Origin: Gordius sp. MW1
Taxonomy: Eukaryota > Nematomorpha > Gordioida > Gordea > Gordiidae
Direction: 5' to 3'
DNA length: 64,000 nt
Assembly: GCA_964036665.1 (NCBI GenBank)
Contig: OZ038529.1
Span: forward strand, 18,920,060-18,984,059
The position numbers were made by a program, and so were the translations under genes. A model generated the notes under the pieces. That model made no database searches. It was not told the origin of the DNA and worked only from the letters and a program-made list of their open reading frames with translations. Every line of letters starts with the position of its first letter. Positions within the stretch are counted from its first letter, which is position 1. Positions 14,302 through 64,000 of this stretch are shown here, piece by piece.

Positions 14302-14715
14302 TCAAGCTTTCTCTAAGTCAATGAAGATCATATGTAGGTCTCTTCTCTTTTCACCATATTTATCCATTATTTGTCTTAGTGCGAAGATTGGGTCGATTGT
14401 GGATTTCCCGGTCACAAATTTGAATTGGTTAGCCAATATTTCCACCTCGTTTTTCAGCCGTGTTACTAAGATCCTTTCCAGAAGCTTCATGGAGTGGCAA
14501 GTTAGCTTGATACCTCTGTAATTGCCACAGTCTTGAGGGTCTCCTTTGCCTTTAAATAAGGGTATAATCGTGCTTGCTCTCCATTGATTAGGAATTCGCT
14601 CTACTACCAATATCTTGTTAAGGAGGTTCGTCATGGTGGTGACTCCTTCTTCAAGACATCCTAGCAATGCTTCCATAGGTATTCCATCTGGGTCATTTGC
14701 TTTTCCTTTTTGCAC
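14302..14715 (-). pseudogene. Reverse transcriptase fragment of the RTE LINE
   Basis: The longest surviving open block of the LINE, 137 codons. It covers RT fingers motifs: conserved I-P-x-x-W near the start, then LFKGKGD, the NYRGIKL motif, the TGKSTID region and FIDLEKA, which carries the first catalytic aspartate. The frame breaks immediately after, and the rest of the palm continues in other frames to about 13760. Confidence 0.8.
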
Positions 14716-15338
14716 TTGTTCATTTGTGTCCTAACTTCATCTTCCTGAAAGAGTTTGACCATACTTATATTTGGCTTAATTTTGGGAAGGGAATCCTTGT
14801 CATTTGCAATATTTATAAGTTTCTTGAAATATCCTTTTCACCTTCCCATCACTTCTATTGGATTGAATAAGGTTTGACCCTTTTCGTTTTTGACTATTTA
14901 AGAACTCCGACATCGCGACTTTTCTTCTCAACGATTTGGTGACCCGCTGTAGAATAGTTTTTATCCTTCTCCTAATTCCCGAGCTTTGGTTCCGTTCCAC
15001 CTCGTCTCCTATAGCAGGCGATGTGCACCTTTCTTCTTTTAAGCATTTGTGCGACCTCGAAGCACTTCCCTCTCAATGTTCCCACAATCCAGCACATTAT
15101 TTGCATTCTTTCACAACTTCCTTAACCGCCTTCGTTGTGAGTTGGGTAGCCCTAGTGTATTTTTCAGATTGCACGGGTGGGGTATGTAGTGCGCGTCGTT
15201 TGTGGACTACGCCCTAGCTATCTCTTGTAAAATTTTGTATGAATGTATCATAATTTTGGAGTTGGTTATTATGGCCTGTTTCCGACCTGACGCCAGCCCT
15301 CTGCTTTTTGCACAAGCACGGGACTGTCGTAGGTAGTG

Positions 15339-22064: not shown

Positions 22065-22484
22065 CTATGTTGGTTCATATACGAGTTCAGATGGTGTTAG
22101 TCCGATGTCTTCCTTGATTGTGGCACGGATACCAAGTAACATGAGTGGAAGAACTTCACGCCATTTGGTTTTTCGGTGGCTTTTAAAGATGCCTTTAATT
22201 GTCTGTGGAAGCGTTCCACAAGTCCGTTGGCGAATGGGTGATAGGCAGTGGTTTTTATATGTTTGCATCCTAGTGTGTTGGATAGTTGTCTGAAAAGTCC
22301 ACTGAAACTGAGATCCTCTGTCGGTAGTTATTGTATTTGGGACACCATAATTGGCTATCCAACTATCAATTAGCTTGGAAGCGAACTCTTCGGTAGATGT
22401 TTCTTTGAGTGGAACGGCCATAGGCCATCTCGAGAAACGATCGTTTGCTGTTAAAATATGTGTAGAACCGTTTGAAGGCGGCAT
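22065..22484 (-). pseudogene. Integrase catalytic core, broken
   Basis: The minus strand shows TANDRFSRWPMAVPL (first catalytic Asp), then YGVPNTITTDRGSQF (second Asp). The catalytic Glu region HPFANGLVERFHRQLK is present at about 22230-22190, but in another frame. This block and the tail at 21975-21754, with a GPFKVLERKPRYFIID chromodomain-like C-terminal strand, complete the integrase. Confidence 0.85.
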
Positions 22485-22493
22485 TGGTCTAAC

Positions 22494-23468
22494 TTAATCG
22501 ACATGTATGTGTGAGAACCTTGCGTCTGGTTGTGCGAAAGTCCCGGGCGTCGTTTTAGTGTGTTTGTGAACTTTGTTTAGTTGAAAATTTAAATAACACT
22601 TAACCCAATTTCTAACGTCTTGGTTCATCGAAGGCCACACATACAATCTTGAAATCAGCTTGCTTGTTGCTCGTATGCCAGGGTGAGATAAAACATAAAA
22701 GTGATCGTGAACCTTCCTTCTGAGTGTTTCAGATAATACCGGTTGAGGTTTAGTGATTAAAAAATCACAAAGTACTTTACACTCTGATCCTGGGATAGGA
22801 AATAGTTGTAGCTTTAACGATGATGATTCCTTTAAGTCCCTCAGGGTTTGGTTGGTCATTTGATGCTTACTAATTTCTTCTAGGTTGGGAATTTCAGGTA
22901 AATTAATGGTATCTACCTCCGTCCGAGAGAGCGCGTCTGCAACTGTGTAACTTTCACCTTTGGTGCACCGAGTATCAGGTGGAAATAGCGATACTAGATC
23001 CAATTGCCTTGTTTCTCTAAAGGAATATTGGTCAGGCTTAGCGTTAAAGGCGTAAATGAGTGGTTTGTGGCCAGTGTACACGGAGAAACCTCGACCCTCT
23101 AAAATGTGGCGAAAGTGCTTAATAGCTAAGTAAATTGCAAGAAGATGGCCGAAAGTGCTATATCGTGCCTGCGTTGGTTGCAGCTTGACCGAATAACATG
23201 CTATTTGTTTTACCTGGTCTGAAATTACCTGTTCCAATACTGCGCCTGCTGTGTCCAATGCGTCTGTAGTTAACCTTATTTCTGTTCGTGGATCTGTATC
23301 TAAGAAACTAAGTTTGGTAAAATCTGCTAAATCTGTTTTTGCTTTTTCAAACGCTTTAATCTGGTCGTCGTTGAAAGTTAGAGACTTTTTTGGTTTCTTT
23401 AACAAGTCAGTTAAAGGTAGAAGGGTTCGGAAGATTCCGGGTAGAAATATACGATAAAAATTTATCAT
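22494..23468 (-). pseudogene. RT thumb, RNase H and integrase zinc region
   Basis: 324 codons open, the longest block in the element. Early residues (INFYRIFLPG.., LLKKPKKSLTFNDDQ) are the RT thumb. DTDPRTEIRLTTDALDTAGAVLEQ and the following YSTFGHLLAIYLAIKHFRHILEGR with TGHKPLIYAF are RNase H. SHPGIRATSKLISRLYVWPSM and the NWVKCYLNFQ segment correspond to the integrase HHCC zinc finger, with a cysteine lost in the CxxC part. It is joined to the next block by a short frame break. Confidence 0.85.
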
Positions 23469-23938
23469 CCCCAGAATCTGCGAAGCTTCTTTATGGAGTC
23501 CGGCAGTGGAAATTCGCGGATAGCGTTGACCTTATCCATTAGTAGAGCGATACCAGATTTTAATATGTGATGTCCCAGGAACTCGAGTTCGTGAGCTCCA
23601 AACTTGCACTTTAAAGGACCTATTCTGAGGTCATAGTCCTGTAGTCGTTGTAAAACGGTTCTTAAGTAATTTTCGTTTTCTTTTTCCGAGGTGTTGGCTA
23701 TAAGTAGTCGATATAAGCGTAGGCATAGTCGAGTCCTCTTAACACTTCATCTATGAATCGCTGAAATGTCTGAGCTGCGTTTTATAAACCAAAGGGCATT
23801 CTAGTGAATACGTATAATGCAAATGGCGTTGTCACGGCTGTTTTGCTGATGTCACTTGCTGCAAATGGAATGTGGTGATATGCTCTTACCAGGTCGAGCT
23901 CGGAAAATATTGTTTTGTTGTAAAGGTTGGCGGAGAAA

Positions 23939-44309: not shown

Positions 44310-44895
44310 TTAATTTATCAATTTATTTCGCTTGGGGAGAGGTTCAATTATTTGATTTTGGGGGGAGCTTTGGCTTCTTAGCTGAACTTTACTCCTGCAC
44401 AATGGACTTGGTTGTCTAGCCTTAATAGCCCTCTTCATTGTGGATATGACGGATCGGAAAAGAGGAGTAGCTTTAGGATAATCGCCCAAATCAGGGACTT
44501 CAGAAAGTCGGGAACTTAGGGTCTCATAATAAACGTTACTAATTTTTTGAGTAGGGTTGGCGACCACAGCTTTTTTAAGCTTTTCTTTAGTAACCAACGC
44601 CTCGTACACTTCCCTTGGGGGATCGTGGTTATGCTGATAATTTACAACAACACGCCCATTAACCTCCGAGGCTGTTGTCTGGCAGGAGGAATTATGACAG
44701 CGGTAATATATTTTGTCTCGGCTCTTCCTATTGATCATGTAAAGGTAGGAAGAATAATACATGATGGTTCCTCCCTTTTGAGAATTTAAATATATTGGGG
44801 GTGAAACTTTAAAAATTGTATAGATTATGTTTAAAAAATACCGTTAATATTGGCATCCTGTATTGAGACAGCACCTAAAAGAGATAATGACATTA
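44310..44895 (-). CDS. Duplicated terminal FLYWCH exon pair (alternative 3' exons or relic)
   Basis: Exon 44806-44310 encodes a second FLYWCH finger: LNSQKGGTIMYYSSYLY, then YYRCHNSSC, then NYQHNHDPP, giving the C-x5-C...H-x-H pattern, followed by a SSRLSEVPDLG tail shared with the copy at 45669-46114. It begins with the same phase (two bases) after an acceptor AAAG. A partner of the preceding small exon is at 44895-44842, in phase and with donor GTATTT, but its acceptor position reads CTG where the first copy has CAG, so it is probably unusable. The big exon could still be spliced as an alternative C terminus to exons further upstream, as in arthropod BTB-FLYWCH genes such as mod(mdg4). Otherwise it is a tandem duplication relic. 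The open frame (165 codons) has no lesion. Confidence 0.6.
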
Positions 44896-45668: not shown

Positions 45669-47282
45669 TCACATCAAATCTTGCTTACGTATATTGTTTT
45701 TTTTGCATAAAAGTCTTGGGTGTCTTTTCCTTAAAGCCCTTCTCATTGTCATCCTTACAGATCGCAAAGAAGGAGTAGCTTTAGGAAAATTGCCCAAATC
45801 AGGGACTTCACTAAGGCGGGAACTTAGAGTTTCTTTATAAACACTACTTAATTTTTGAGATGGGTTTGCAGCAGCAGCCTTTTTTAATTCATCTCTCGTC
45901 ACCATTGCCTCATATTCCTCCCTTGGTGGATCATGGTTATGCCGATGATTAACCACAATAAATCCATTTATGTCTATGGCTGTTGCTAGACAGGAGTAGT
46001 TATGGCAGCGGTAATATATTTTATCCTGGTTCTTCCTATTTGTCGCGTAAAGGTAAGAAGAGTAATACATAATGGTTCCTCCTTTTTGGGATTTCAAATA
46101 CTTTGGTGACGACACTATAACATATATAATTTAAAATATCAAAATATACTTTTAGAACTGGTTTCAGTCTCATTTGTTGCAATCAAATCTGTGGAATCTT
46201 GTATAAAAACATCATCTTGTGGAGATGATGACATTACTGTGAATTAAAAGAAACAAATTTAATAAAAACACCAACGTTTTAAAAGCTACATTTTGCAAAA
46301 TCCAAATTTTTAAAATAATTGCTTTACCAATAGAAGAAAGAGAGCCATCCACATTGCTGCTTGATTGGCCATTACATATTATGCTAGAAGAACTGGACTG
46401 GATGGGCCCTTCTACAAAAGGTTCAGGATTTTTTAACATACCATTGTTAGCTCCTTGGCATGATTTTTTTTGAATATTATTAAATAAAACTTGACTCAAT
46501 GCCGTAGCAGGTTTAGGAAGGATGAATTTTTCCTTAAGCCGAGCCCCAGACATTACCACTGCTGATTGAAAATTATGGGCTGATTAAACTAATTTTTGTT
46601 TACAAAATAAAAACATTACTTGATTTAATAGTATTGGAATGGATGAGTTGCTTTTTAAGTTCAGCCTGAGACATCTCTGCTGATTGGAGGCGACAATGTG
46701 ATTTATCTAAAAAATGAATTACAGAATAAAAACATTACTCAATGTCGTAGCAGGCATAGACTCAATGAGTTGTCTCTTTAATTCAGCCCCAGTCATAATC
46801 AATGCTGATGGGAAATTACCGGCTGATTGACTTTTCGCTTTAAGCAATGGCAAAGCAGGATTGATGAGAGGCTGCTTAGCATTATTTGTTGAAGGTATGA
46901 TCAAAGGAGATGTGTTATTGCTGATATCTGAAAAAGCTTTATAGTAATAAAAGAGTAACCCTACTAAATGTCATTTTAGACACGAGGTTGATTGGGTGCC
47001 TAACAAGTTCAGTCCCAGGCATAACCAATGCGAATGAGAATTTGTTGGCTGATTGGCTTGAAACAATGGAGTTATTTAATGATATCAAAGAAATGGACTG
47101 GGAAGAGTGCTCAATGGTATTGGCACCATGCAGGAGTGATGCTAATGGGGCATTGCTGGAATGACCTTAAAGCTAATTTAGCAGGTTATACAATTACTTA
47201 CTTATTGTCATAGAAGGAATAAAGGGCTGCTTAGGAATGCCAACTCCATGGGTTCCCAATTCTGATGGGACATTGCTGGCAC
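45669..47282 (-). CDS. FLYWCH zinc-finger gene with repeated phase-1 exons, 3' part
   Basis: Seven minus-strand exons join in phase: 47282-47202, 47165-46965, 46927-46739, 46706-46620, 46579-46328, 46236-46150 and 46114-45669 (stop). Every intron is phase 1, so each exon is symmetric. The last exon carries the FLYWCH finger: LKSQKGGTIMYYSSYLYATN, then YYRCHNYSC and NHRHNHDPP (two Cys, two His), followed by a conserved SSRLSEVPDLGNFPKATPSLRS tail. Upstream exons encode Ser/Asn-rich, probably disordered sequence. In four of them it contains a related motif (SALIMTGAELKRQLIES, SAVVMSGARLKEKFI, SFALVMPGTELVRHPI, SAEMSQAELKKQLIHS), a sign of exon duplication. FLYWCH fingers bind DNA or protein in chromatin and miRNA regulators; the N-terminal part (possibly BTB) is not visible in the window. 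Donors are GTAATG, GTAAGT and GTAGGG types. Product name uncertain. Confidence 0.7.
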
Positions 47283-53410: not shown

Positions 53411-53429
53411 TTTATTTTGCCTATGAATA

Positions 53430-53960
53430 CGAGGTGGAAATATCGGCCAATCAATTCGGATTTGTGGCCGGCAAATCCACATCGACCCAATCTTCGCACT
53501 AAGACAAATGATCGATAAGTATGGTGAAAAGAGGAAAGACCTACCTATGGTCTTTATCGACTTCGATTTAATATGGTGGTGCCTGAGAAAACAAAATATC
53601 CTTGACGCATATATACGACTAATGAAAAATATTTATGAAGCCTCAAACTCTTGCGTTAGGGCGACAGTTGGAGACTCTAAATTTTTTCGGGTTAAAATTC
53701 GATTACATCAAGGATCTGCTTTAAGTCCCTTTTTATTTAATATTATAGGCACGATAACGAGGGACATTCAAAAGCCATCGCCATAGTGTATGCTCTATGC
53801 CGATGATATAGTCCTATGCGAGGAAACAAGGAGAAAGTATTGGAAGAAGCCGAAAATTGGTCAAAGCGCTTAGCTGGATATGGTGTAAAGGTCAACGATT
53901 GAAAAACGGTATACATGGAAATAAACGGTACAGGCAGCCCATCGCTGGCGAAGTTTATTT
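53430..53960 (+). pseudogene. RTE LINE RT fragment
   Basis: The plus strand encodes ANQFGFVAGKST, then RQMIDKYGEKRKDLPMVFID (palm motif A with its catalytic Asp), [14 protein letters not shown] (motif B) and, after a stop, CMLYADDIVLCEE (motif C with YADD). It is the same family as the RT at 14302-14715. A deletion after FIDFD and several stops make it dead. Confidence 0.8.
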
Positions 53961-57710: not shown

Positions 57711-58036
57711 TGACTGGACTTACAAAAGAAGGAGACTTATTGCGGCCCGCGGCAAGAAATTTCGAGTCGTTAACTCGCAGCTTCAAAAAAAAAAGGGAGG
57801 AAAAGGCTGGTAAAATTTTATTATAAATGTATATTTGAGGTAAATTTGTATGATTTTTTATTACATAAGTTTTTTTGGTGATTTTATTGATATCATTGAT
57901 TGTCAATTTTAAGACGTATATCCTTAAATGTTTGATAAAAATAATTTTAAACTTTATTTAAAGCATGTAATGAGCGATTTATTTGAGTATATAGATTATT
58001 TATTCTTTTTTTTTATGTGGAATTTTAATTGGGAGA

Positions 58037-58267
58037 TTGATGCACAAATTTAGGAATAAAATGAGATGTTATACATGTAATAGTAGTGATCACTTACAAA
58101 GAAATTGTCGCTATCTAAATAAGCCTATGGCAGATAAAGTAGGTTTAAACTATTCAATCCCAAATAAAACTAAGTTTTTTACCCCGCGGTGTATTAATTG
58201 CGGGATAATGGGGCATTATGCTGAGGCTTGTAAGAATAAGGTGGTGTTCCCGAAGTACAAAGACTAA
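58037..58267 (+). CDS. gag nucleocapsid remnant, two CCHC knuckles
   Basis: 76 residues holding two retroviral-type zinc knuckles: CYTCNSSDHLQRNC (C-x2-C-x4-H-x4-C) and CINCGIMGHYAEAC (same spacing). It packages RNA in Gag. The capsid part that should precede it is missing: only about 330 bp separate it from the putative primer site, so gag is internally deleted. The stop codon overlaps a 41 bp tandem duplication. Confidence 0.75.
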   Translation: MMHKFRNKMRCYTCNSSDHLQRNCRYLNKPMADKVGLNYSIPNKTKFFTPRCINCGIMGHYAEACKNKVVFPKYKD

Positions 58268-58341
58268 TTTTTCGGCGCTTCGTTATACATGCATATCGCA
58301 AGACTAATTTTTCGGCGCTTCTTTATACATGCATATCGCAC
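58259..58341 (+). repeat. 41 bp direct tandem duplication
   Basis: AAGACTAATTTTTCGGCGCTTC plus TTATACATGCATATCGC twice in a row with one base difference. It is followed by a C16 tract near 58368. Confidence 0.85.
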
Positions 58342-58529
58342 GTCCCGGACTTACCCCCAATATTATTCCCCCCCCCCCCCCCCATATTCTCGCGTTATAA
58401 AAAAAAATTTTTGCATCGTTTAATTTGAGTAGATATACCGATATAACTATGTAGTATAAATTTGTCTGCTATTTAGAAAAAAGGAAAAATAAATTACTAA
58501 CATTAGGGTTAAGGACCAAATAATTTAAA

Positions 58530-60443
58530 ATGTTGAATAAAATATTTTGTCTGTGGAAACTTTTTATTAAAATATGGATCAAGTTCATACAATTTGGTAT
58601 TTTAGAAAATAAAAGGAGGCATGAAAATGTAAGAAGCCATTATAGTAACCTAGCTATCAACACCTTTCATATGCAGAATAAATGCATTTTAAATAAAAAT
58701 ACGCAAAAGTATTTTTCGTATATAGTGGTTGAGTGTCATAAGACAGTTTGTCTCGGGAATGGGTCGAATGAATTTAAGATCCGAGGAATCGTGGTTAAGT
58801 CATTCGAAATTCCAGGTGCTCAATCAAAATATATGTTTAAATCGTACCCACGGGTGTTGGGCCGATTTTGGGGTTGTGATAAATTTTATTGGTTGGGAAA
58901 AACCAATTTAAGTGTTTTGGTGGGATACCGTTATGGCTGTTTACACACAAAAGCAAGCATGCCCCCTAATATTTTCAAAGTACCAAAACGATATCGGGTT
59001 ATAATGGAAAGGGATAAATTTTATCGTAAAATTAATAATCATTTACACACTTTGGGGGATCTAAATCAATCAAATAAGGTTTATTTGAATAAATTTTATA
59101 AGTACGTGAGGAAAAAATTTATATTTAAAACATATGAATGTGGGTATATCTATGAAAATTTGAACCGGGTAATAATCACAAGTGTTAATATTAAACCCAT
59201 CCAAGTTAAATATGAGAAGGGTTTGAACGACTTAAAAATAAAGCAACCTTTGGAAACCGTGATAGTTAAAAAATCCGAAAATAGTAACTTAAGGCCAGGT
59301 TATTTTATAAATATGCTCGAAACTATACATAACTCAATTCCCCGCCTAAAAATAACTTGTAATAATGTGCCGTTAAGTTTTGTATGGGATACGGGATCTG
59401 CGATATCCGTAATAAATAAGGAAGATTAGATAACGGTAGGAAAGGGTCGATTATTTAAAGAATTTAAAGTAGAGGCCCGGGTATTTAATAATACTAAGGT
59501 AAAATTGTTAGGGCATTGCGAGGCTCAGATAACAATAAATAATATTAGTAAACAGTTAAAATTATATGTGTCCGAGGCAGGGACAAATAATATTTGTGGA
59601 TGGGATTGGATAGATAATTTTGAAGTAGAATGGTTTAAGATAATTAAGGGTAGGCTGGGCGAATGCGATAACTTAATAATAGTAGAGATACTGGGAAGGG
59701 AAGGGGTGGAAGAAAAGGGACAAGACGTTTGGGACGAGTTCCCATCCATTTTCACGGGTGGGTTAGGTTGTTTAAAAAATTTTGAGGCTACCATGAGGTT
59801 TAAGGAAGGGGTAAAGCCCAAATTTTGTCCAGCTAGGAGGGTACCCTACGAGTGGAGAAGGGAAATAGAGGAGGAGTATGCCAAAGTTAGTGGAAGTTCT
59901 ACCAGAATCGTGGTTAGAATATTAAAGGAGTTATTGGCCCGGTATGGATTACCCAAAGTGATAGTGTCGGATGGAGGACCGGCCTTTACGAGTAGGAACT
60001 TTAAAGAGTTCTGTGAGAGTCAGGGCATTGAGCATATAATCACCGTGCCCTATCACCCGAGCTCCAATGGACAGGCCGAAAGGATGGTCGGGATAGTAAA
60101 GGGATGGATTATGAAGGAACAGCAAGGTGAGTCGGAACAGTGGCAGATGCAATTGATGTATAATAATGCGAGGGGTAGGGAGGGGAAGTCCCCTTCTATG
60201 AATTTCTTGGGGCGTCAGGGAAGGGTAAGGCTAAACCTGTTAAGGAGGGAAGAAATGGGACCGGTAACCGTAAATCCCACGAGGTTTAAGTTGGGGGATA
60301 GGGTTTGGGTACGAATGTACCAAGGTTCATATAAGTGGATTAAGGGGCTGATAATAGCCGTTGAAGGAGAATGGCGATATCGAGTAGCTATTGAGAGTGG
60401 GGCCGAGTTTTGGAGGCATGTAGATCAGGTAAGAGCAAGATGA
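58530..60443 (+). pseudogene. gypsy pol with in-frame RT-to-integrase deletion
   Basis: One reading frame of 638 codons broken only by TAG at 59427-59429. Residues 1-270 are unrecognised. Near 59383 comes retropepsin VWDTGSAISVI (DTGS). The TAG lies 10 codons on. The frame continues through the rest of protease, then the start of RT (FPSIFTGGLG, CPARRVPYEWRREIEEEY). At about 59885 it jumps in frame to integrase: RYGLPKVIVSDGGPAFTSR (second catalytic Asp) and HPSSNGQAERMVG (catalytic Glu), then a C-terminal domain with RFKLGDRVWVRMY and a WRYRVAIESG strand. RT palm, RNase H, the zinc finger and the first catalytic Asp of integrase are gone, so it cannot transpose by itself. The absence of other lesions suggests a fairly young deletion. 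Confidence 0.8.
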
Positions 60444-60643
60444 AAATTTTATAATTACTTAGTGCCTTTTTGTCAATTTTTTTTTCTTCCTCTATAAAAT
60501 TATCTCATATTTTTGCACACCATTAACGGGATCTAATAAATAAATATCAATTTTATATGTAATGTTGAACTTTTCTATCAATCATAACTTATAGAAACGA
60601 TTGCGGGTTCCCAAGTCTTATTGAGTTTTAGACAATATCTCGT
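60444..60643. other. Spacer downstream of pol
   Basis: AT-rich. No 3' LTR is recognised. Contains AATAAATAAA near 60536. Confidence 0.35.
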
Positions 60644-61039
60644 TTGGGAGTGCGCGTATTCGATAATATAAAGATACAGATGAAGTACAGACTATGTTTG
60701 AGGTACGACCACGAATCCCAACAATGTCCGTATTGGGAGGCCGTCAATATAACGGGGATCGTGTGCTATCTGTGCAATAAACGAAACATGCATGAGTGGA
60801 AGGAATGCCCGCGGAGGATAAGGGGAAAAAGGGCCAGTAACCGCAAAGTTAGGAAACTATGGATAAAATCGCAAGTGGCCAGGGAAAAGAATATACAGAA
60901 ATGTAAAGAGGTAGCAACACAAACCGACGCGTCAGAGGGTGAGGTGTGCGAAGCCTTCAATAGACTACAAATTTGGTGTGAACTTTTACCTTTCACTGTT
61001 ATATTACACTTTTACCTTTCACTGTTATATTTTCTCTAA
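60644..61039 (+). CDS. Zinc-knuckle ORF, gag-like fragment
   Basis: 131 codons. MKYRLCLRYDHESQQCPYW and CYLCNKRNMHEWKECPRRIR look like two imperfect CCHC knuckles (the first lacks an early cysteine, the second has five residues before His). A basic RGKRASNRKVRKLW stretch and a VATQTD segment follow, like the end of a retroelement Gag. It is different from the knuckle ORF at 58037 and less AT-rich. The true coding part probably ends near 60980; the last 20 residues read through a junction repeat and antisense viral sequence. There is no capsid and no pol after it. Origin unclear. Confidence 0.45.
   Translation: MGVRVFDNIKIQMKYRLCLRYDHESQQCPYWEAVNITGIVCYLCNKRNMHEWKECPRRIRGKRASNRKVRKLWIKSQVAREKNIQKCKEVATQTDASEGEVCEAFNRLQIWCELLPFTVILHFYLSLLYFL
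60984..61034 (-). repeat. Tandem duplication at the virus-retroelement junction
   Basis: A 25-26 bp unit, AATATAACAGTGAAAGGTAAA on the minus strand, is present twice in a row. The first copy is still in the viral reading frame; the second shifts it and brings the stop at 60999-61001. It marks the downstream border of the viral sequence. Confidence 0.7.
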
Positions 61040-63813
61040 TAAGCGTTTTATTTAATTTATTGTCTATACAAAACTGTTGCTTTAACTGTTTTATACCATC
61101 TAATTTACCTATGTAACATCTATCTGCTTCTTCTAAATACACAATCTTCTCAATTCTACTATCATCTAATATTAGTCCTCTAACCGCATGAGCTGGCACT
61201 AATATAGCATCTTTTACCTTATATCCAAAACAACAGTGGTTGCCATTGGATTTGTTTATACTCACTATTCCTACATCTTTACTCAACAGCCTATCTATTA
61301 AGCTTTCTTTGTCTATAACAAAGGTAGATGTTTCTTCTCTGTCTAGTGATGGTTCATCACTCACCCTTTCATACTTGTTCACTGGTATATAGGTATTACT
61401 GAACACTACTTTATCTCCACCTGCCCTATTCTTTGGCCACATAATTGCAATATAATGACTTATTAAATTAGTAGTTGGGTATGTTACATAATCTACACTA
61501 TTTCTTATATTTACCAATAATATTTCGACATTCCTTCTTGGGTACCATATTAATCTTGCGGACAAAGCTAATGCCATTGTCGATACTCCACCCATCCATC
61601 GTATAACTATCAACATCGATAATATTGACAGTAACTCTAATATCAACTGTGTTATAAAACATACTCTTCCATAATCACTCTTTATCATTTCTCTCAAACA
61701 TCCTGCGCCTCTATTCAATAACCTAATAGTATCTGATATCGATCTTATCATCAACCTCTCTATGTCCAATCTTTCAATTAGTGTCGCCTCTGTGCTAGGT
61801 ATCAACCAAAAGACTATTATCGCAAATATTCCTATAACTCCTATGTCCCATCTTCCTGCAAATAATAACATACCACATGCAAATAGTAATACCAATGATA
61901 TCGCTATACTTATTATTTCACCCTTAATATTTAAAAACTTTGATGCTCTCTTATATATTGATATCAACCTATCCCTTATTCTTGATGTGAAAATAGTGAT
62001 ATTAACGTCTTTATCTCCATTTGGCGCTATATAATTATGCCAAGTGTAACTCAAAAAATATTTTGGCTCCCTGATTAATCCCTCTATTTTTACCTTTACT
62101 ATTTTACCTGAGCCCTTAACACTTATGTATTTATCCACAAACATCCCACAAGTTACTTTCAATTTGATTACTGTATTATAACTCACTATATACATCAATC
62201 TACCATTTATTATACAATTTTCAAACCTCCACAATACTTTACATTTCTTCTGTCTCACCGTTATACCAATTGATATAGTAGCATACTTAAAGTAAGAACC
62301 TATTCCTTCTGTTACATTTTTAACCACTACTTTATCAACAATACAATCCTCTACTCCAACTTCCCCAAATCTCTCTGTCGACATAACTGTCATTCTGGCA
62401 TTACTATCTATGGATACGACATCAATTATTTTCTCCTTAACTGATATTTGTAGCATGTCACCAAAGGCATCGCTGATTAGCGTAACGTATTCACTCTCTA
62501 GCCAAAGGTCTGCATGGGTTTCCTTATACTCAACCCTAGGTTCTACCCCATCTAGCCTTACACTATAACCCACACATTCCTTGTCTATTAACAAATTTGA
62601 ACTATCTCCTGTGTAGGCACATACATTTGCCTCTTTAATGTTCTTATTAGACATATAGGTGTGCGATCCATTGTACAATATAAATTGCGGTATCGACTTT
62701 CCTGCTACTATAACATCGGTTATTGATATTTCTTTACTAGCTAAGTCATACCCTGTATCTAAATATAATATTCTATCCTCTCCTGAACCAAATATCTTAA
62801 TTTCTATTTGGTGATTTTTTGCTGTTTCTGATAATCGAAACACACTAACTCTCCCCATCAGATTCAAACACGATATTACTCTGACCCAAACTGTTCCTAC
62901 AAGTGCGCAATTGGTTCCTGCCCACATATTGTTGTAAGCACTTAAACAATCATCAAAAAAGCATACTTGATCACTCCTGTGTCCTTTCATGTTTATCTTC
63001 GCATTACAAACTCCTCGCCCTAATCCACTAGGGCATCCATATACATGTTCTGTGTCAATTTCTATACTTCCAACGTACACACCATCAAGTATATAAGTCG
63101 GTTTTGAGCTTATCGACATAATCTGCATTGTGTTGTTACCCATGTGTAGACAAGTGCCTATTCTAAAATTACCACTAATCTTATACCTCATATGGCTATC
63201 ATTATCCTGTGTATTGCATCCCATCCAATACACAATCATCCACTTGTTGGGTCCACATTGGCGCTACCAACACTAATAATATTGTTAGTACAATCGCCCA
63301 AATACTTCCATATAACTCACATACCATTACCAACAACATTAGGTATGTTAGCAAAATCATTACCATATTCCATTTATGTTCATGCATGAATGTAGTATTG
63401 TAATATCTTCCATTAAAGCATCCTACCTTATTTGAAGAACAAGAATTAACTTGTTTTGTCTCACTCTTACAATTAATGTTTACTATCGAGGCTCCAAACT
63501 CGATAGACCTTATCCCTTGCGAGCATAAATATCTTATCTCTTGTTTAGATGCATAACATTGCGAATCTATACCATAGGACAACGAACATCTAACTCCTTT
63601 TTTAACACAAAAAAAGATTCTGTTATACATTTCTATAGCTTCTTTAACGTTTATAATAGAAAACATGAACTCGTGGTTCAAATCCCCTGCTTCTAAGCAT
63701 GTACGTCCATTATATAGCAAAATATTGCCATCTTCCGTCACATTTCTACTTCCTTGCCTATTAAAAAACCTCGTTTGTAGCCTTATCCTTCCACCAATGT
63801 AGTTTGTTGGCAT
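60999..63813 (-). pseudogene. Endogenous flavivirus-like polyprotein fragment (M, E-like glycoprotein, NS2-like, protease start)
   Basis: Two minus-strand blocks, 63813-63202 (203 codons; open from a stop at 63892) and 63239-60999 (746 codons), overlap and are one coding sequence with a single frameshift near 63210-63235. Block 1: cysteine-rich ectodomain, then two membrane segments (residues 150-166 and 171-186) like the flavivirus M anchor. Block 2: eight cysteines at 8, 30, 69, 78, 93, 98, 111 and 124, close in number and spacing to the flavivirus E N terminus, with W106-A-G-T-N-C111 where the E fusion loop lies. A stem and double anchor follow (441-482), then a hydrophobic NS2-like part (527-563), then a trypsin-like protease start with His684 (PAHAV) and Asp706. 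The Ser motif is missing because the sequence stops. No NS1-like region is seen. Structure argues for a large-genome flavi-like virus; sequence identity is low, and this rests on patterns. The long intact block suggests a young insertion or constraint. Confidence 0.7.
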
Positions 63814-63845
63814 ATCTGATTGGTATTCATCATCGATTAAACTAT

Positions 63846-64000
63846 AAGTGTTCTCATTCCAATTACAGGGTCTCGAAAGAGACCTGCATTGTTATTTATC
63901 GTCACTACCTCCCCGTGCCGGGAGTGGGTAATTTGCGCGCCTGCTGCCTTCCTTGGATGTGGTAGCCGTTTCTCAGGCTCCCTCTCCGGAATCGAACCCT
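63846..64000 (-). rRNA. 18S ribosomal RNA fragment, runs off the window
   Basis: The minus strand reads GGGTTCGATTCCGGAGAGGG, CTGAGAAACGGCTACCACAT, CCAAGGAAGGCAGCAGGCGC, AAATTACCCACTCCCGGCAC and on to CCCTGTAATTGGAATGAG, the highly conserved eukaryotic 18S region around nucleotides 380-540. The match ends at CACTT (63846); the normal continuation TTAAATCC is replaced by the viral-type reading frame. It has the same sense as the viral ORF and lies on its 5' side. The other part of the 18S gene is not found elsewhere in the window. Confidence 0.9.

Follow-up and report, generated by a model that had tools for sequence, protein, structure and literature searches.

What is the long, nearly open minus-strand sequence that lies between a fragment of 18S rRNA and a retroelement near the end of this window (the whole 64-kb stretch of DNA that we analyzed)? 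We propose that it is probably a non-retroviral endogenous viral element, a DNA copy taken from within the polyprotein gene of a divergent flavi-like virus. It would run from a small prM-like glycoprotein to E (the class II fusion glycoprotein), an NS2-like membrane region, and the beginning of the NS3 protease, with NS1 missing. We base this reading on the long stop-free frames, the gene order and topology, a fusion-loop-like pattern, a model of a domain-III-like piece, the foreign composition, the fusion to 18S, and the Ty3/gypsy flank. The features are listed in Table 1.

Table 1. Features of the virus-like segment and its flanks, with positions in the window
Feature	Positions	Strand	Details
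18S rRNA fragment (eukaryotic), from about model position 372, cut by window end	63853-64000	minus	Rfam RF01960, 147.2 bits, E 3.7e-40
18S / virus-like junction, probably a few shared bases	63846-63853	minus	alignment and sequence reading
Block 1 open frame, 229 codons	63205-63891	minus	
Virus-like part of block 1	63205-63852	minus	Cys-rich ectodomain, then membrane hairpin
Tight two-helix membrane hairpin, block 1 residues 172-218	63238-63378	minus	hydropathy
Overlap of block 1 and block 2 frames (frame break)	63205-63263	minus	
Block 2 open frame, 754 codons stop to stop	61002-63263	minus	
Block 2 from first ATG, 746 codons	61002-63239	minus	
E-like ectodomain, block 2 residues 1-433	61941-63239	minus	14 Cys, 5 N-x-S/T
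Fusion-loop-like W106-A-G-T-N-C111-A-L-V-G115, residues 106-115	62895-62924	minus	
Domain-III-like beta domain, residues 296-390	62070-62354	minus	
Stem-like amphipathic segment before anchor	61932-62000	minus	helical moment up to 0.53
Double membrane anchor, then signal-peptidase-like S-T-E-A (residues 482-485)	61800-61913	minus	hydropathy; cleavage by eye
Hydrophobic stretch, residues 524-561, NS2-like by position	61557-61670	minus	
Putative trypsin-like protease start, V-P-A-H684-A-V and D706	61002-61322	minus	by eye; Ser region outside fragment
24-bp direct repeat, 26-bp spacing, at 3' end of virus-like segment	60982-61005 and 61008-61031		
ORF with zinc-knuckle-like motif	60632-61036	plus	by eye; no Pfam match at E 0.01
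Ty3/gypsy-type remnant	57995-60440	plus	zf-CCHC 3.2e-07, rve 7.1e-10

A reading of the letters that preceded our analysis (the sequence-only reading) described about 2.9 kb of open minus-strand sequence. Two long open frames are indeed present, but they are in different frames and overlap, so the whole segment is not a single open frame, and block 1 begins within the 18S fragment, which makes its first 13 codons ribosomal rather than viral. The sequence-only reading had overlooked both the frame break and the 18S fusion. We left the frame break uncorrected and analyzed blocks 1 and 2 separately. At the stop-codon frequency of the window (0.067), a frame of 754 codons would be expected by chance with p ~1.8e-23. 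The virus-like segment is also foreign in composition: its plus-strand GC skew (−0.368) was exceeded by 0 of 290 2.8-kb windows starting before 58000, and its CpG observed/expected ratio is 0.63 versus 0.94. There is no second copy of block 1 or block 2 within the 64-kb window, where the only non-self matches were pieces of 32 and 34 residues (E = 1.4 and 8.8).

In block 1, the cysteine-rich ectodomain and the tandem membrane anchor that had been reported are both present. The ectodomain comprises ~158 virus-like residues with 8 cysteines and two N-x-S/T sites, and two membrane helices with a short loop between them follow it. By position, this hairpin is M-like. The furin motif R-x-K/R-R is absent from block 1, and the block 1 protein had no match in Pfam, among PDB sequences, or in a search of 5.8e9 proteins. 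Block 1 is prM-like in place and topology only, and we do not assign it as prM.

Block 2 has the eight cysteines within 124 residues that had been noted (residues 8, 30, 69, 78, 93, 98, 111, and 124). As six cysteines also fall within 56 residues in 6746 of 50000 shuffles that keep the composition of the ectodomain, cysteine clustering alone is not special, and we dropped it as evidence. The W-x-G-x-x-C motif of the sequence-only reading is there too, as W106-A-G-T-N-C111. A pattern that spans the entire loop (W.{1,2}G.{1,2}C.L.G) was found in 7 of 50000 such shuffles, and 759 contained a looser form of it, but both the loop and the cysteine patterns were composed after the sequence was known, and we use the counts for guidance rather than as a test. 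Farther along, residues 414–489 contain a stem and a double-helix C-terminal anchor, as in class II E proteins (judged by hydropathy and helical moment). The hydrophobic double anchor itself occupies residues 434–489, and, as had been described, it is followed by another hydrophobic region. The trypsin-like His/Asp context was reported correctly insofar as H684 and D706 are present, but it was identified by eye and no profile supports a protease; the putative protease start had no profile match and no PDB match.

Flaviviruses have M, E, NS2, and the start of NS3 in this order, at these sizes, and with tight hairpins. The order, spacing, and topology of the two blocks match the layout of a flavi-like M/prM - E - NS2-like - NS3-protease segment. 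In this one fragment, no NS1-sized part follows E, and the fragment stops at 61002, short of the helicase (NS3) and RdRp (NS5) regions. The claim that the segment is a DNA copy of a flavi-like virus from M to the NS3 protease is thus upheld for layout, but the segment has no significant sequence or structure match, and the protease part is unconfirmed. In comparison with the prM-E region of orthoflaviviruses, the segment shares an M-like hairpin, an E-like protein of ~490 residues with a stem and double anchor, a fusion-loop-like motif, and, in the predicted model, a weak resemblance to domain III; it differs in that it lacks the furin motif and an NS1-sized part after E. Also, the loop has one extra residue between W and C relative to orthoflavivirus E, and the 14 cysteines of the E-like frame compare with 12 in orthoflavivirus E.

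The structural model of the whole ectodomain was too poor to interpret (pLDDT 33.7). With this model, 8 of the top 22 Foldseek matches were flavivirus envelope entries, but none was significant. In BFVD, a flavi-like row was among the matches listed, and bunya-type glycoproteins were at rows 8 and 12 of the best 50 (not significant). Because the model is so poor, we do not consider the BFVD and VIA searches with it to be evidence for the fold. When the domain-III-like piece was modelled alone, the top Foldseek TM scores to the target, within the best 50, belonged to three flavivirus domain III rows (0.44, 0.44, and 0.46). In VIA, flavivirus E accounted for 17 of the 50 matches listed, with nearly the whole domain aligned (rmsd 3.4–4.6), but small heat-shock proteins were more numerous among them. 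So, the modelled piece weakly resembles domain III of flavivirus E, no better than it resembles small heat-shock proteins. None of the Foldseek, BFVD, or VIA searches gave a significant structure match to the segment.

The bunya-type rows in BFVD raise the question of whether these are the glycoproteins of another class II virus (e.g., a bunya-like Gn-Gc), either endogenous or captured as the env of a retroelement. Class II fusion proteins have cysteine-rich tips in common, and a Ty3/gypsy remnant adjoins the virus-like segment. However, Gc ends in a single anchor, whereas here each anchor is a tight hairpin, and beyond the E-like protein come further membrane sequence and what looks like the start of a protease. 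As for capture, the Ty3/gypsy remnant and the virus-like segment lie on opposite strands, and the latter is fused to 18S. Atlas virus of hookworm (PMC9094657) is similar in that a class II viral glycoprotein gene resides in an invertebrate genome, but its phenuivirus-like Gn-Gc is the envelope of a retrovirus-like element, and no env role is visible in our segment. Overall, we give this explanation little credence and prefer a flavi-like origin.

Sequence searches did not identify any relative. In Pfam, no viral or cellular family exceeded its cut-off, whether the query was a whole ORF (E up to 1) or a piece (E up to 10). The sole Pfam match in the virus-like blocks, YlaC (E = 0.024–0.026), was below its cut-off, and we dismissed it as a membrane-helix artefact; a PHROGs match at 0.0054 was also rejected, with no stretch passing. 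Neither block matched any PDB sequence. We found no relative among the 5.8e9 proteins, which were searched with queries of 746, 1750, and 212 residues against candidates of 0.55 to 1.75 times the query length, so that proteins of more than ~3060 residues, including full-length flavi-like polyproteins, were left out. Peptide patterns from six queries had 0, 1, 2, 219, 6, and 2 pattern matches in IMG/VR, and none of these was upheld by tblastn. A cellular membrane protein family or a retroelement env, which the sequence-only reading had named as matches that would count against it, did not appear above cut-off in the sequence searches. According to PMC11410658, flavi-like glycoproteins are difficult to recognize from sequence, deep homology in the flavivirus family escapes DIAMOND and InterProScan, and structural detection in the most divergent flavi-like viruses needed ESMFold models. 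As sequence methods fail at such depth, a blank sequence search says little.

The lack of a sequence match to viruses would also be expected if the segment were a non-viral gene of the host or of a transposon that encodes a multi-pass membrane protein. This is improbable, because no cellular family was above cut-off either, the composition is extreme for the window, the junction to 18S is abrupt, and the anatomy is E-like.

In the assembly, the virus-like segment lies between 18S and retroelement sequence and is joined to both. The 18S fragment is in the same orientation as the virus-like frame and is joined to it directly: close alignment to 18S stops after GGAATGAG, at 63853, and the virus-like frame starts at ~63852. 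(Rfam reports an 18S end of 63780, but the sequence past 63853 is poorly aligned.) We placed the junction by comparison with the expected continuation of animal 18S. An 18S pattern had 0 matches in GTDB contigs and 0 in IMG/VR contigs. Such an abrupt join to a piece of rRNA near the window end, along with the tandem repeat (26-bp spacing) at the opposite join, might instead indicate that the viral sequence is not integrated at all and is a viral cDNA or a library or assembly chimera with host DNA. This explanation overlaps with our reading as to viral identity. We consider it unlikely because the repeat and the join to the retroelement seem to form a DNA-level junction, and because the frame break would suit an integrated copy.

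If the endogenous viral element is genuine, how might it have formed? In an infected germ cell, the reverse transcriptase of a resident retroelement could have copied viral RNA and then, where the two templates share a few bases, switched from the viral RNA to 18S rRNA. Insertion of the resulting viral/18S cDNA into the genome could have followed. Tentatively, the segment may represent a deeply divergent, undescribed flavi-like lineage, whose class II fusion protein is of the E type and whose prM-like partner is non-homologous, that is preserved nearly open in the host genome as the product of a switch between viral RNA and 18S rRNA templates. The element is probably young or slowly decaying, as one frame break is the sole visible lesion in ~2.85 kb. 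It is unlikely that the copy is a working viral envelope.

Parts of this proposal have precedents. Viral integrations in Aedes have Ty3/gypsy elements at their flanks, and the route proposed for them is template switching (PMC5497376). The same paper states that flavivirus structural genes are integrated less frequently than non-structural genes, in agreement with the sequence-only reading, and such copies are nonetheless known: the Aedes F-NIRVS are DNA copies of flavivirus genes that include the less frequent E, prM, and C (PMC5497376). The F-NIRVS resemble our putative element in this respect and in their Ty3/gypsy flanks, but they were found by similarity to flavivirus sequences (PMC5497376), of which the present segment shows none in our searches, and the present segment differs in being fused to 18S rRNA. 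The E proteins of large-genome flaviviruses and pesti-like viruses are class II with a fusion loop, as we propose for the E-like protein here, and their detection needed structure and not sequence (PMC11410658), but no alignment of them with the present segment could be obtained. Bole tick virus 4 offers a parallel for block 1, since PMC11410658 describes small membrane-anchored partners without homology to prM directly upstream of E.

Viral fossils are already known as a kind, but no sequence in the collections that we searched matches the present one. Among the literature results listed, no paper describes the element, which does not prove that there is none. If our reading is true, then a nearly open E gene and its partner, from an unrecognized lineage, would provide a reference point for how old class II E proteins and their partners are and how far they have spread. 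The fusion to 18S would be a concrete trace of a piece of an RNA virus turning into DNA.

The adjoining Ty3/gypsy remnant encodes zinc knuckles, an aspartic protease motif, the start of reverse transcriptase, and an integrase core, in that order (the protease and the gap in reverse transcriptase were identified by eye). Most of the reverse transcriptase and RNase H is missing, yet the frame is still open, which by eye appears to be an in-frame internal deletion. The remnant also contains two tandem copies of a 40-bp unit (98%; 58260–58339) and, after them, 16 consecutive C (58368–58383). Elsewhere in the window, another LTR-type element (22068–23531, minus strand) has RNase H and integrase domains, and there are pieces of reverse transcriptase at 14305–14730 and 53427–53783 (the latter below cut-off). 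ARAGORN found no tRNA genes in the 64-kb window. An ORF at 1377–1883 encodes the C-terminal domain of UTP15 (Pfam, 2e-14), a eukaryotic ribosome-biogenesis gene, and two minus-strand ORFs with FLYWCH zinc fingers (44313–44843 and 45672–46130) are ~0.8 kb apart.
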